In this document: piece by piece, positions 21,261 to 26,771 of the stretch
How positions within the stretch are numbered: the stretch's first letter is position 1
Layout of the letters: every line of letters begins with the position of its first letter
Origin: an uncultured Verrucomicrobiota bacterium
GTDB lineage: Bacteria > Verrucomicrobiota > Kiritimatiellia > RFP12 > UBA1067
Length of the DNA stretch: 32,447 nucleotides
Direction of reading: 5' to 3'
NCBI GenBank assembly: GCA_945834475.1
Contig: CAMAHK010000019.1
Location: 1-32,447, forward strand
Notes under the pieces: model-generated
Databases searched by the model: none
Seen by the model: only the letters and a program-made list of their open reading frames with translations
What the model was told of the DNA's origin: nothing
Translations under genes and position numbers: made by a program

Positions 21261-23314
21261 CACCGCATCCCCTTCATCTCGAACTTCTCGCCGCTGAGCG
21301 CACGCTTCGCGAATTCGCCCCAGTACGGCGTCGGATCGTAGTCCCAGCTCTGGATCATCACCGGCGCGGCCTTCGGATGGAAGCACCAGCCCGTCCAGTT
21401 GATGCGGAGCTTCTGGATGAAGCCGAGCATATCGGGCGAGAACGTGTAGGGATCCTCCTGCTGGTTGTCGGGGATGAAGTTCATCACGCCAAGCGGGGAC
21501 GCGCCGACTTCACCCAGGAAAATCGGGTGCTTCGCCGCGACCGGGAGGATGCGGCCCCAGCCCTTGTGCCAGTGATAGGTGTGCCAGGCGTACATGATGC
21601 CGTTGCCGGTCGTGTCCGTGAGGCGGTAGGACTTCTTCTCGCCCTTCTCGATCGCCTCGCTCTCGATGCCGGTGAGGTCGTTCGCCCAGAAGAGGCCGCC
21701 CGCGATGACGACGTTCTTCGCGCCGGTGGAGCGGACCGCGTCCACGAGCGCCTGCATGCCGACGGACTCGAAGCCCTGGTTCTTCTTCTTCTCCTCGGCC
21801 GAGAGGAAGGCCGACTCGTCGTGCTGGCCCTGCTGGCCGACCCAGCCGCCGTCGCGCCAGATCTCCCAGCTGATGCCGTGGGGTTCGTTGAAGAGGTCAA
21901 ACAGGACGGCCGGATGGTTCTTGTAGTGCGCCGCACAGTCCTTCCAGAAGGCGACATGCTCGGCCTTCGGGGCACGGAAGCGGTGGAGGTCGATGACGAC
22001 ATAGGCACCGCGGTTCGCCGCGAGGCGGACGATCTTGTCGCACGCGTCGCGGAAGGACTTACCGCCGTCGTTCTTCGAGTAGACGCCCGTACCGAACCAG
22101 TGGGCCTCGTTGATCGGCAGGCGGATGCAGTTCGCCTTCCATTCGTCGATCGCAACGACCGTGGACTTCGTCTCCTGCTCGCCGTTCGGGATCGTCTCCA
22201 TGCCGCCCGCATTCACGCCCTGCAGCCAGACTTCCTTGCCCGAGGGATCGACGAGACGGTTGCCCTGGACACGGACCATCTTCGGCCACTTCGCACGGTT
22301 CTCCGGCTCGTCCGGGACATAGCGGGCCTTGGCCTGGCGCTCGCGCTCGGCGGCGGCCTTCTTGAGCGGCTCCGCGGAAGAGGCGACGCACCGGACGTCC
22401 GTCATCTCCATTTCACCGGCCTTCACCTGGAAGAGACACGGCATGACGACAAGCGTCACGGCCTCCTTCGGCACGAGGAAGGACGTCTCGCGATCCTGCC
22501 AGCCCTTTGTGTCCTTCTGGACGTAGACCGGGCCGGGGTTCTGGATCTCCTTGCCGTTCGCATCCTTGAACTTGAAGAGGACGCGCGCGTCAAACCAGGG
22601 CTTCTCGCCCGTCTTGAGGTTCTTGACCTCCCACTTCCACGACATCTTCAGCGCCTCGACGCCCGAGGGAACGTCATATTCCTTGTAGGCGCAGACGAGC
22701 TTGCCCGGTTCGGTGGAGACGAGCTTCGCGTACGGACCGTTCTGCGCGGGAATCAGAGACCCGCCTTTCTCCAGGCGGTCTTTCGCCTTCGCCTTGCGAT
22801 TCTCCACGCTGGCGGCCTTCTTCGCAGCCGCCGCCTCGCGCTTCGCCTTCTCCGCCGGATCTTCGGTAAACGTCTTCTGCGCCACGACCGAGAGTTTGCG
22901 AATCTGGAAAGCGCCCTTCTTAACATTGAAAAGACACGGCATCAGCGCAATGCCCTGCGCCTTCTCCGGAACCTCCACCGTCTTCTTGACCTCAAACCAG
23001 TCCTTCGTCCCGGCCCAGCCGCCGATAGTGGGGCCGCCCTTGACTTCCTTGCACTGGCTGTCGATGAACTTGGTCATCATTCGCGCGTCGAACCAGCCCT
23101 GAGCGCCCTTCTGGACGTCCGTGATCTTAGCCTCGAACGAAATGGCCGCGCCCTTCGTTCCCCTCGGGAAGAACACGGGAATGAAATGCATTCCCATCTT
23201 GCCCTCCCCCTTGAACGGCACGTCAAGGTTCCGCTTCCCCTCCGGAACCAGATTCGTCTCCGCCCCCGCGACAAGCGCAAGAGCCCCCATCACCGCCATG
23301 ATCAGTCTTTTCAT
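21260..23314 (-). CDS. Secreted GH5 endoglycanase with two carbohydrate-binding-like domains
   Basis: The 684-residue protein has a signal peptide, two similar beta-sandwich-like domains (about 25-145 and 195-311) and a GH5 TIM barrel (about 345-680). The domains share WFDAR and the block MPCLF-x-VK, so they arose by duplication. An Ala/Lys-rich, probably helical linker (150-182) separates them. In the barrel, the acid/base is E477 in FDLFNEPHG and the nucleophile is E602 in FLGEVGAS. GH5 enzymes cut beta-1,4-glucans, mannans or xylans, and the exact target is open. The start overlaps the GH92 stop (ATGA). Confidence 0.92.
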   Translation of the reverse strand: MKRLIMAVMGALALVAGAETNLVPEGKRNLDVPFKGEGKMGMHFIPVFFPRGTKGAAISFEAKITDVQKGAQGWFDARMMTKFIDSQCKEVKGGPTIGGWAGTKDWFEVKKTVEVPEKAQGIALMPCLFNVKKGAFQIRKLSVVAQKTFTEDPAEKAKREAAAAKKAASVENRKAKAKDRLEKGGSLIPAQNGPYAKLVSTEPGKLVCAYKEYDVPSGVEALKMSWKWEVKNLKTGEKPWFDARVLFKFKDANGKEIQNPGPVYVQKDTKGWQDRETSFLVPKEAVTLVVMPCLFQVKAGEMEMTDVRCVASSAEPLKKAAAERERQAKARYVPDEPENRAKWPKMVRVQGNRLVDPSGKEVWLQGVNAGGMETIPNGEQETKSTVVAIDEWKANCIRLPINEAHWFGTGVYSKNDGGKSFRDACDKIVRLAANRGAYVVIDLHRFRAPKAEHVAFWKDCAAHYKNHPAVLFDLFNEPHGISWEIWRDGGWVGQQGQHDESAFLSAEEKKKNQGFESVGMQALVDAVRSTGAKNVVIAGGLFWANDLTGIESEAIEKGEKKSYRLTDTTGNGIMYAWHTYHWHKGWGRILPVAAKHPIFLGEVGASPLGVMNFIPDNQQEDPYTFSPDMLGFIQKLRINWTGWCFHPKAAPVMIQSWDYDPTPYWGEFAKRALSGEKFEMKGMR

Positions 23315-25557
23315 TTCATTTCCTCTTTCATTTCAAAAACCAATTCTCCGCCTTTCACCAGATCCGCATGACGGATCTTTCCGTTCGTAATCGGCGTGCC
23401 ATTCCACGTCACCGACTTCACGTACTTGTTCTTCTCCGAAATCCCCTTCGCCACAATCGTCAGAGAGTTGGAGTTTCGAGTTGGAGTTGGAGAATGGAAT
23501 TTTTTCGCCCTTTCTCCCACTCCAACTTCAGACTCCAACTCTTCTCGGGAGACGCACAGCGTCACCCGAGAAGCCTGCGGCGCGCCGAGCACGTATTCGC
23601 CCGACGACGGATCGACGGGATAGAAGCCCAAGACCGAAAAGAGATACCAGGCCGACATCTGTCCGCCGTCCTCGTTACCGCAGACACCGTCCGGCTTCAG
23701 CGAATAGAATCTCTCGCCCGTCAGCTCGCGCACGAGTTCCTGCGTGCGTTCGGGCTTCCCCGCGAGAGCGAAGAGATACGCGACGTGGTGACTCGGCTCA
23801 TTGCCGTGCGCATACTGTCCGTAGAGCCCCGAGACATCGTCAAGCGCGGGGAGTCCGGGCACTTCGCTCGGCAACGTGAAGAGCCGTTCGAGTTTCGCAA
23901 GAAACTTCTCGCGTCCGCCCAGAAGCGCAATCAGTCCCGGCACGTCGTGCTGCACGTGCCAGAGATACTGCCAGGCGTTCGCCTCGGTGAAATCGCCGCC
24001 CAGCGCGTAGGCGTTGCAGATGCGGAGCGGCTCGAAGTCGCCGCGCCACGCGCCACGCGAATCGCGACCGCGGAAGAACCCCGTCGTCGCATCAAAGAGA
24101 TTCGTATAACTTTTAGCTAACGCCTCAAACCGCGCGACCTCCGCATCGGGGGTGCGGGGGCCTGTCCCCGTCGGTTCCCCCGCCCCCGCCACCACCCGCG
24201 CGAGCCGCGCCGCCCCGGCCGCGTGCACAGCGCCTTCAAGCGTCTTGGAGACGCTTTCTGTCGTGACGATGTCGTAAGGCTCGTAACCAAGCTTCGCGAC
24301 AAGATCGGCGCGATGCGTCCGACGCGATCCCAAAATCGACTTCTTGATCGCCGCGAGGGCGCGCCGTCGATCGAAGCCCGTAAAGCCCTTCACCGCCGCA
24401 TCGGCGATCACTGTAACGGCCGGATTCCCAATCATACAGTTGGTCTCGCGTCCCTGTAAGCTCCAGACGGGTAGATACCCCTGCGCATCGCATTGATCCA
24501 GCATCGAGTTCACGAATCCGTCGACCTTCTCAGGGAAAGCCAGCGTCAAAAACGGATGCGCCGCGCGGTAAGTATCCCAAAGCGAGAGCTCGCCATACGC
24601 AACGCCTGCAGTCGCGGTACGAATCTTGTCGTCGGCCCCGCGAAACCGCCCTGCCGTGTCCGAAATCGTGTGGGGTCCGCAGAGCAGATGATAGAGCGCC
24701 GTGTAGAAGAGCTTCTTCGTGCGCAAATCGGCCTCAATCGCGAAGCGGCCGAGCGCATCGCGCCATTTCGCCTCCGCGTCGCGTCTCACGCGCGTGAGAT
24801 CAAAGTCACCGATCTCGTCCGCAGCGGCCTGCGCACCCGCGTCATCGCTTGTGGCGAGTCCCGAGACGACGGTCAGCGTGTTCGCATCGCTCACGCCGAA
24901 GTCGAAGACATAGCGCGGCGCTTTCTCGCAGACATTCAGCTTGGGGAGCTCCGTGATCGAGAGCGCCTCGTCGCTGAAACGCAACCGGCCGAAGACGTGG
25001 CGCTTCGCCCAGCATTCGACGACCTCCTCGACGGCGAGACCCGTCTTCATTGGCATCGCCGTGCAGAAGATGACGCGATTTGTTTCGCCGCGCGTACCGA
25101 AGACGACGAGCGCGTCCTGCAAATCGACGAGCAGCTTGCGCGACGCGCCCTTCGGGTAGGTGAAGCGAAAGATACCCGCCCGCGTCGTCGCGCTCATCTC
25201 CGCGCGGATGCCGCTCGCAAGCGTCGTCGAGTAATACCCCGGCGAAGCCGTTTCGCTCGCCTTGTCTAACGGCGCGGGAACGACCGGCTGGTCGCCGACA
25301 AACGGCAGGATCCGCAAATCGCCGAGATCGCCGCAGCCCGTGCCGCTGAGGTGCGTTGAAGAGAAGCCCAGGAGCGTCGTATCGCCGTACTGATACCCTG
25401 AGCAATGCGCCCAGTCCAGCGTGCCCGTATCAGGCCCCGCCTGAACGCCCCCGAAAGGTACCGTCGCCGCTGGGGTTGTATGACCTGTCCCCGCCGTGCC
25501 GACAAACGGATCAACAAACGCCAGATTAGCAAGAAGAAATAAACCACTCCAAATCAT
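23311..25557 (-). CDS. GH92-family alpha-mannosidase (metal-dependent)
   Basis: The 748-residue enzyme belongs to GH92, calcium-dependent exo-alpha-mannosidases. The N-terminal domain starts after a short hydrophobic leader with FVDPFVGTAGTGHTTPAATVPFG. The barrel contains LSLWDTYRAAHPFL, and the hallmark catalytic segment GNEDGGQMSAWYLFSVLGFYP is seen near residue 625. Two insertions have no family counterpart: residues about 458-472, from a G-rich repeat, and about 672-697, from a long palindrome. Both keep the frame and lie in surface loops, so the enzyme may still work. It overlaps RAYT (ATGA) upstream and GH5 downstream. Confidence 0.94.
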   Translation of the reverse strand: MIWSGLFLLANLAFVDPFVGTAGTGHTTPAATVPFGGVQAGPDTGTLDWAHCSGYQYGDTTLLGFSSTHLSGTGCGDLGDLRILPFVGDQPVVPAPLDKASETASPGYYSTTLASGIRAEMSATTRAGIFRFTYPKGASRKLLVDLQDALVVFGTRGETNRVIFCTAMPMKTGLAVEEVVECWAKRHVFGRLRFSDEALSITELPKLNVCEKAPRYVFDFGVSDANTLTVVSGLATSDDAGAQAAADEIGDFDLTRVRRDAEAKWRDALGRFAIEADLRTKKLFYTALYHLLCGPHTISDTAGRFRGADDKIRTATAGVAYGELSLWDTYRAAHPFLTLAFPEKVDGFVNSMLDQCDAQGYLPVWSLQGRETNCMIGNPAVTVIADAAVKGFTGFDRRRALAAIKKSILGSRRTHRADLVAKLGYEPYDIVTTESVSKTLEGAVHAAGAARLARVVAGAGEPTGTGPRTPDAEVARFEALAKSYTNLFDATTGFFRGRDSRGAWRGDFEPLRICNAYALGGDFTEANAWQYLWHVQHDVPGLIALLGGREKFLAKLERLFTLPSEVPGLPALDDVSGLYGQYAHGNEPSHHVAYLFALAGKPERTQELVRELTGERFYSLKPDGVCGNEDGGQMSAWYLFSVLGFYPVDPSSGEYVLGAPQASRVTLCVSREELESEVGVGERAKKFHSPTPTRNSNSLTIVAKGISEKNKYVKSVTWNGTPITNGKIRHADLVKGGELVFEMKEEMK
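23465..23541. repeat. 77-bp palindromic insertion within GH92
   Basis: A 28-bp left arm (23465-23492) built from GTTGGAGTT units is matched at about 24 of 28 positions by the reverse complement of the right arm (23514-23541), around a 21-bp loop. It encodes a charged loop (about 26 residues) between the last beta strands of GH92. Confidence 0.75.
24144..24185 (+). repeat. G5/C5 palindromic repeat in frame within GH92
   Basis: GGGGGTGCGGGGG, a 4-nt spacer and TCCCCGTCGGTTCCCCC match the tandem copies at 26681-26771 almost base for base. It encodes GEPTGTGPRTP within a helical linker where other GH92 proteins have no such residues. Confidence 0.75.
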
Positions 25558-26726
25558 TTCGTCAACCCCTCCTCGGCCGCGCGACAGAGCGCCGCCGCCA
25601 AATCATTCATCGCCAAGCAGTTCAATCGGAACTGATGCGCAACCGCTGGATTCTTCCGCATCTCCAGCGCCGACAACGCCGGCGTATTCGAAAACCCGCT
25701 CAAGATCAAAAGACGCCCGGCGGCGATTTCGCGTGAATCTTCTGCCGACGGATCATAGCGCGGCGGCAACGAAGCAGGCAGAAGTTTGATGAATCGCGCC
25801 CGCGGTTCTTCTTTCAGCTGCCGAAAGGCTTCTTTCTCGCCTGGCGAAAGAAAACCCGAAACCGCGATGTACCCACGCCGCGCCTTTTCGACGATTTCTG
25901 CAATCGCCGCGCGATGCTCTTCAACCGATTTCTTAAGCGTCAAGCGAACATGAAAGAGAAACGGCGACGCGAAAAGCGGCGCGTAACCGATCGACGACCA
26001 GCTCTGCCGCGCATCAAGATACGGGTGGCGAAGGTTCGTATGGCGAACGAAGAGATCGGGGTTCCGCTGTTTCCAGATCGCGCGAGCCGGGTTTAGTCGA
26101 ATGTAGCACCGAATGGTCTTCAGTTGGCGCGAATCGAACGAAAGCTCTAGATACGGCGACCGCTCGAAGCGAAGTGGGGAAGCGACGGGGGCCTGCCCCC
26201 GCACCCCCGGGTCGGGCGCAAGCCCACGCGCGAAATCGGCCGCCGCGCAGGCCTCGGCCAAATACCGCGCCATCGTCTCGGGCGAAACCTCGCCAGACCC
26301 AAAGCCACCCCCCTCCGCCAGGGGGTGCGGGGGATTCACCCCGTCGGTTCCCCCCAGTTTCCCCGCCGCGCGCTCCAGCGCATCGATCAGCCGATGCGTT
26401 AACCACAGCGGACTAATAATCGCATCGCGCGAGCAATCGACCAGAAGCAAGAAATGGAAATGGTCGGGCATAATCACGTAGTCGCTCACCCCGACCGCCG
26501 GCCGAACGAGATGGAGCGCCCGAAGCCCCGCCCGCACCAGCTCGCCGCAACCCGACAGCACCGGCCGCGACTTCTCGTCGACGAGCCGCGACAAAACCGC
26601 CCGCCGCCCCTCGACAGCGACAGTTACGAAGAAAAACTTCGTACCAATTCTATTAAACGCCAGCTTCAGAAAATCTCTCCACCGCCAGGGGGTGCGGGGG
26701 GCTTCCCCCGTCGGTTCCCCCAACAC
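25554..26726 (-). CDS. RAYT (REP-associated tyrosine transposase) with long C-terminal extension
   Basis: The 390-residue protein is a Y1-type transposase of the REP-associated class. The HUH motif is H89-F90-H91 in VIMPDHFHFLLLV, and CYIRLNPARA at 207-216 carries the tyrosine block (Y208) of these single-strand DNA nickases. The core ends near residue 230. About 150 further residues contain two Rossmann-like strands (YIAVSGFLSPGEK, GRLLILSGF) that resemble a DprA/SLOG-type fold, which is tentative. The GTG start at 26726 and the first 14 residues lie in a repeat copy, and two more copies encode residues 124-137 and 172-184. It overlaps GH92 by 4 nt and no strong ribosome-binding site is seen. 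Confidence 0.82.
   Translation of the reverse strand: MLGEPTGEAPRTPWRWRDFLKLAFNRIGTKFFFVTVAVEGRRAVLSRLVDEKSRPVLSGCGELVRAGLRALHLVRPAVGVSDYVIMPDHFHFLLLVDCSRDAIISPLWLTHRLIDALERAAGKLGGTDGVNPPHPLAEGGGFGSGEVSPETMARYLAEACAAADFARGLAPDPGVRGQAPVASPLRFERSPYLELSFDSRQLKTIRCYIRLNPARAIWKQRNPDLFVRHTNLRHPYLDARQSWSSIGYAPLFASPFLFHVRLTLKKSVEEHRAAIAEIVEKARRGYIAVSGFLSPGEKEAFRQLKEEPRARFIKLLPASLPPRYDPSAEDSREIAAGRLLILSGFSNTPALSALEMRKNPAVAHQFRLNCLAMNDLAAALCRAAEEGLTK
26174..26213 (-). repeat. G5/C5 palindromic repeat within RAYT, inverted copy
   Basis: On the minus strand GGGGGTGCGGGGG, CAGG and CCCCCGTCGCTTCCCC match the consensus. It encodes residues 172-184 of RAYT (PGVRGQAPVAS). Confidence 0.75.
26315..26357 (+). 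repeat. G5/C5 palindromic repeat within RAYT, direct copy
   Basis: CCGCCAGGGGGTGCGGGGG, ATTCA and CCCCGTCGGTTCCCCCC match the tandem units upstream. It encodes residues 124-137 of RAYT (LGGTDGVNPPHPLA). Confidence 0.78.
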
Positions 26727-26771
26727 CGCCAGGGGGTGCGGGGGTCTTCCCCCGTCGGTTCCCCCAACACC
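26681..26771 (+). repeat. Tandem pair of G5/C5 palindromic repeats at the RAYT start
   Basis: Two units (26681-26724 and 26725-26771) each read ACCGCCAGGGGGTGCGGGGG, a short spacer, then CCCCCGTCGGTTCCCCCAAC. The two G5 and two C5 blocks can form nested stems. The first unit encodes the RAYT N-terminus and the second fills the gap after the passenger gene stop. Confidence 0.85.

Follow-up and report, generated by a model that had tools for sequence, protein, structure and literature searches.

A Y1 transposase with a DprA-like domain that carries tagged palindromes in its own reading frame, a candidate REP/RAYT system of, probably, Kiritimatiellia

The closest described relatives of the system reported here are the REP-associated tyrosine transposases (RAYTs, also TnpA_REP), REP standing for repetitive extragenic palindrome. 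The E. coli TnpA_REP/RAYT (structure 4er8; Nunvar et al. 2010, PMC2817692) has a Y1 fold, HUH and Y---NP motifs and inverted palindromes at its gene, and palindrome and enzyme evolve together. For TnpA_REP subclass 2.4, Quentin et al. (2018; PMC6006769) describe in-frame REPs in the transposase gene, generally between the HuH and Y motifs, together with NH[IFV]H, WQ and YIxNNP, a median length of 194 residues and GT[AG]G-tagged REPs. Palindromes translated in frame in diverse proteins are described for the GTAG repeats of Opitutus terrae and the RPE/CGTC repeats of Rickettsia by Di Nocera et al. (2013; PMC3733652), who report CGTC-type repeats, the intragenic Rickettsia ones included, without a transposase. 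Thus both REPs within tnpA_REP genes (subclass 2.4) and intragenic REPs in other bacteria have been described before. Here we analyze a 32,447-nt stretch of DNA from an uncultured Verrucomicrobiota bacterium (contig CAMAHK010000019.1, assembly GCA_945834475.1; the whole stretch is called the window), in which a RAYT-type transposase gene carries palindromes in its own reading frame.

The window family resembles the E. coli system in all the features just listed, subclass 2.4 in having in-frame palindromes between the HuH and Y motifs, and the Opitutus and Rickettsia repeats in that its palindromes are translated in diverse proteins. Unlike the E. coli RAYT with its canonical REPs, it has no GTAG at the hairpin foot, a low copy number, intragenic palindromes and an extra domain. 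It also differs from subclass 2.4: nearly all members have DH[FLIV]H, the tyrosine motif is YI[KR]xNP, the open reading frames (ORFs) span about 310-460 residues, half of the protein is DprA-like and the tags are others. The window protein has neither NH[IFV]H nor YIxNNP, and no GT[AG]G guide was found at the hairpin foot. Classification of the window palindromes as CGTC repeats was considered and rejected, as the CGTC unpaired tag, the stem starting with AT and the CCA tail, as described (PMC3733652), all differ.

The transposase ORF (26726-25554, minus strand) begins with GTG, is open over 390 codons (390 residues) and has 4 nt in common with the ORF of a GH92 gene (23311-25557), an overlap pointed out in an earlier, sequence-only reading of this DNA. 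The labels HUH, Shine–Dalgarno (SD), −10 box, tyrosine recombinase and RND are used here for what we take to be the corresponding motifs. Numbered from the GTG as residue 1, H89, H91 and Y208 show no variation between the window protein and five aligned homologues; in a set of 29 sequences H91 and Y208 do not vary either, and H89 reaches at least 90% conservation. The HUH motif reads PDHFH (H89/H91) and the tyrosine motif YIRLNP (Y208), the pair of motifs that marks RAYT/TnpA_REP proteins, and the predicted fold is that of a Y1 transposase. The RAYT identity proposed in the earlier reading is upheld, with catalytic residues that are intact and conserved in homologues. The score against the NCBIfam model REP_Tyr_transpos, 19.9 bits, falls below the curated cut-off of 80 bits, although all 29 aligned family members match this model at E ≤0.1; naming the protein a RAYT by the NCBIfam cut-off fails, whereas naming it by motifs and fold holds. 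A Pfam scan gave no match for the window transposase and found Y1_Tnp in 9 of the 29 members. Judged from its sequence and predicted fold, the ORF encodes a RAYT-type HUH/Tyr (Y1) transposase. By profile and predicted fold (Foldseek against pdb_via), its C-terminal half is a Rossmann domain of the DprA/SLOG kind. At the level of the fold, this half has a Rossmann-type core in common with DprA (4ljk, 5mll, 3uqz) and ShosA (8zva); unlike in those proteins, it is fused to a Y1 transposase. A PADLOC search of three family members gave no match. The closest named matches of the transposase come from Kiritimatiellia and Verrucomicrobia metagenome assemblies, which makes a Kiritimatiellia host probable.

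Five palindromes, all of one family, were located at this locus; they are listed here with the two genes that hold them:

25554..26726, minus strand: RAYT-type Y1 transposase with C-terminal DprA-like domain (ORF, motifs, profile, predicted fold)
26730..26765, minus strand: palindrome copy 1, upstream of the GTG (covariance model, pattern)
26686..26721, minus strand: palindrome copy 2, coding for residues 2-14 if the GTG is the start, leader if a downstream CTG is (covariance model, pattern)
26319..26354, minus strand: palindrome copy 3, forward, in the linker between the HUH and Tyr motifs (covariance model, pattern)
26175..26210, plus strand: palindrome copy 4, inverted, at the right end of the HUH-Tyr linker (covariance model)
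24146..24181, minus strand: palindrome copy 5, in frame in GH92 (covariance model)
23311..25557, minus strand: GH92 gene, host of copy 5 (ORF, domain match)

The exact pattern GGGGGTGCGGGGN{2,12}CCCCGTCGGTTCCCCC has four matches in the window, as against a mean of 0.00 and a maximum of 0 in 100 shuffles. The two tandem 5' palindromes are spaced 44 nt apart, and the unpaired 5' tag of the window palindromes is GGAACCGA. Copies 3 and 4 form the inverted pair at the gene that is typical of RAYTs. That repeats are translated as part of the transposase, with two further copies in frame within its coding region, had been recognized before; the opposite orientation of these two copies and the fifth copy had not. 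In GH92, copy 5 accounts for 12-13 residues without counterpart in any of 11 homologues compared. The same gene holds a second type of repeat, an inverted pair rich in AACTCCAACT-type sequence near the C-terminus of the ORF (23464-23542).

In-gene palindromes are a property of the close family. Reading ORFs from stop to stop, and counting L011, L036 and L076, which are one gene, once, we found a hairpin in 20 of the 21 close-family ORFs (L021 has none); in 17 of the 21 a hairpin lies downstream of the family-type start. At these loci 46 hairpins fall inside the ORFs (1.87/kb) and 29 outside (0.116/kb). With a slightly different merging of hits, the linker has 24 hairpins, the C-terminal zone 13 and the N-terminal zone 10. 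The linker bears hairpins in 13 ORFs, eight of which, by inspection, have a forward copy on the left and an inverted one on the right. All three frames occur among forward linker copies (7, 3 and 3), and the frame has changed at least five times on the transposase tree: in the linker it is the DNA that is kept and not the peptide. The linker ranges from next to nothing to more than 100 residues and is predicted with low model confidence. Two RAYTs on very short branches (genomes G054 and G011) differ by one whole linker palindrome. An unrelated repeat (TCTGCGGCAATAATGCCGCAG) occurs in a distant relative (L031:880-2034), where the ORF read from stop to stop has it ahead of the transposase domain and again at its end.

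The palindromes of the relatives share one build: a tag, CGGGG(G), a loop, CCCC(C)G and NNCCC. The tags of other transposase clades include GACATCGAC, GCGAACGA and CAAAGGA. Tag distance averages 0.07 within a locus and 0.51 between loci, and it tracks protein distance (Mantel r 0.70, p 5e-5, n 20); for six tag classes, five changes suffice on the transposase tree, the labels of which were compiled by hand. Loci of one genus (g1; L101:1512-1531, L121:1510-1529 and others) have a frequent palindrome with the loop CTCTGGCG, in which the innermost pair shows matched changes (G-C, C-G, A-T).

In its own genome (2.57 Mb in 134 contigs, 85.5% complete), the covariance model detected five strong copies, all at this locus, and two weaker matches elsewhere. 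By inspection, one of these is in frame in a transporter-like gene; the other (L097:1512-1533) lies between two genes of an apparent hydrogenase or Nuo-type operon. The exact 34-nt pattern, too strict for this purpose, found nothing in this genome and 95 relatives beyond the four window copies. A looser pattern gave 251 matches in 45 of the 96 genomes, own included, against 18 for a reversed-pattern control, and the covariance model likewise matched in 45, that is, in 44 of the 95 relatives. Strong copies in the genome itself are thus confined to the locus, which the sequence-only reading had named as evidence against an active or domesticated system, but related palindromes are dispersed among relatives and the catalytic residues are kept. 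The highest number in one relative is 18 by covariance model and 35 by the looser pattern, unlike canonical REPs, which are extragenic and often exceed 100 copies per genome. Palindromes, in-RAYT copies included, occur in 21 of the 22 genomes with a strong RAYT match (E ≤1e-30; counts compiled by hand) and in 24 of the 74 without. The link between RAYT genes and palindromes across genomes is real but not strict.

We examined 66 palindromes outside RAYT loci, a non-random sample (up to a few per genome from the search loci plus 20 chosen regions of three genomes, all with enough flank), in which 37 are called in frame in genes, 27 lie at gene edges or between genes and two share the frame with a stop. 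The 66 include one L141 site twice and some sites that are orthologous between related species, and among the non-gene palindromes L046 and L047, at least, resemble tRNA arms; the in-gene class rests on a codon-usage heuristic trained on window genes, which under-calls genes of odd composition and missed RAYT ORFs. Ten hosts scanned with NCBIfam are ClpX, two ValRS, three IleRS, LeuRS, MetRS, threonine synthase and a D-galactonate-type transporter. At one LeuRS and one IleRS site the palindrome peptide has no counterpart in solved homologues. One IleRS loop was followed in 27 species (3 of 30 loci fell outside the site pattern): it holds a palindrome in six, three forward and three reverse and always in frame, is 13-14 residues long in 12, and has other inserts, all in frame, in nine. 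The six may represent two to four events, as G055/G008 and G011/G040 look alike. In L188 this loop is filled by AACTCTCAACT-type inserts resembling the second GH92 repeat.

The start of the window gene looks derived. Aligned relatives start at MKL or an equivalent position, which lies 19 codons beyond the window GTG; the window has CTG there (26669-26667), preceded at 5 nt by an SD-like GGAGAG. Either the start has shifted into the repeat or the CTG is used and the 5' repeats form an untranslated leader; only in the former case would copy 2 encode residues 2-14. TATAAT lies within 20 nt upstream of 8 of 21 family start sites (chance, 0.003 per 20-nt stretch), a placement suggesting leaderless transcription of family members that would often stand alone. 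The window gene has no TATAAT, and its strand yielded no promoter-like site from 27696 to 25557; it may rely on read-through. Together with the CTG at the family start and the palindromes directly upstream, this makes the GTG start probably secondary or unused; of the earlier reading, the tandem 5' copies stand and the start inside the repeat is doubtful. In five relatives, the genes next to or close to family members bear no relation to one another (YqeY-like, efflux HlyD and OEP, SDR, GH28-like and recombinase-like; 7 of 10 neighbors were named, the recombinase-like call being by inspection). The proposal of a domesticated system locked into an operon thus finds no support. Another member (L079) is flanked by OEP and HlyD genes; a further, RND-like gene (by inspection) of that cluster has an in-frame palindrome, paralleling the GH92 copy. 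An empty site of the transposase was sought in close relatives (58 genomes) and not found, the best GH92 homologue being about 50% identical. In G054 and G011 (L073:4865-7696, L074:4469-7482) a tyrosine-recombinase-like gene comes about 50 nt downstream of the transposase; the block is common to both and the upstream flanks differ, as if the two genes had moved together.

On balance, we favor a REP/RAYT system of, probably, Kiritimatiellia, in which a Y1-DprA-like transposase acts with tagged hairpins whose copies spread in frame into genes. This reading builds on the domain make-up, the catalytic residues, the in-frame palindromes, the match of tags to phylogeny and the in-frame copies in other genes. 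The Y1 domain would recognize the single-stranded hairpin CGGGG(G)-loop-CCCC(C)G with its enzyme-specific unpaired 5' tag and would cut and rejoin there; the probable task of the DprA-like domain is to hold the single strand or shield it. Copies may spread singly or as inverted pairs, and those landing in genes would survive only where a flexible loop takes them up in frame, since nearly every frame of the GC-rich palindrome is open and yields stretches rich in Gly, Pro, Ser and Ala. The HUH-Tyr linker and the termini would be tolerant sites, and so the transposase gene would carry its cognate repeat along. Tentatively, one may go further and see here an unnamed class of Y1-DprA-like transposases, in which the target palindrome, kept within the transposase gene, would serve as a linked seed copy and spread as in-frame linkers into vital genes, with tag and enzyme co-evolving.

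Several points weigh against this. Cleavage and action on single-stranded DNA are predicted activities, and the tag test uses related sequences from which shared ancestry is only partly removed. GT[AG]G is at the hairpin foot in none of 56 oriented copies; in two copies only (L073, L074) GTAG is found 7 nt further out. In L020, L023 and L026 the sole hairpin precedes the likely start. Twelve more distant or partial loci, checked separately from the 21 ORFs, lack an ORF hairpin in all but one case (L032, partial), and the 11 include L024 and L025, closer family members that are partial or split. Strong copies in the incomplete own genome are confined to one locus. Palindromes occur, sometimes in number (11 in G055, 10 in G083), in 24 of the 74 genomes without a strong RAYT match; once RAYT-locus copies are subtracted, RAYT genomes show a moderate surplus (mean 5.1 vs 1.2, p 9e-4), and the covariance model was itself built from RAYT loci. 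A second IleRS site (L107) shows no clean gap, and in ClpX the palindrome peptide replaces loop residues. Genes other than the transposase show a preferred frame, used by 10 of 11 in-gene copies in forward and 18 of 26 in reverse orientation. The peptide may thus be of importance there; selection on it, or an insertion bias, is likely.

Could the palindromes in the transposase gene be passive, arising as GC-rich DNA in a fast-evolving gene is duplicated locally, slips or undergoes gene conversion, with no transposition by this enzyme? The tandem copies in the window, tandem half-units in L013 and L019 and the other inserts in the same IleRS loop in nine species would fit, but unlinked genes have the same build, tag and tail included, both orientations occur at a single IleRS site and the tag follows the enzyme clade; we regard this origin as unlikely. 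That the repeat-coded linker is functional at the protein level, in a gene domesticated to serve the polysaccharide operon, seems highly improbable: the linker peptide occurs in three frames and both orientations, with low model confidence and very variable length, and the neighbors are not conserved in the five relatives, even though the overlap with GH92, the member between efflux-type genes and the single frame preferred in other hosts could be cited in its favor.

It is also possible, if rather doubtful, that the family is active and the window copy hardly so, having lost its promoter box and ATG after insertion of palindromes upstream. The CTG in place of ATG/GTG, the missing TATAAT and promoter-like site and the low copy number in the genome are what such decay would leave; the open 390-codon frame, the kept catalytic residues and the SD-like GGAGAG before the CTG speak against it.

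In the open-licence literature we found, among the matches listed, no RAYT-DprA fusion, no paper on Kiritimatiellia REPs, and no match for this tag family or for an enzyme tied to palindromes in vital genes. To our knowledge, the route by which short palindromes enter protein-coding genes in frame has been open since the Rickettsia elements were described. Here, similar insertions, among others in aminoacyl-tRNA synthetases and ClpX, occur in genomes related to one with a transposase that bears palindromes of this kind, co-varies with their tag and has an unexpected DprA-like half. Several enzyme-tag pairs are clearly different, which makes tag-specific binding directly testable. If the proposed class is real, Y1-DprA-like transposases would be candidate mobilizers, more generally, of Rickettsia-type palindromes embedded in proteins.

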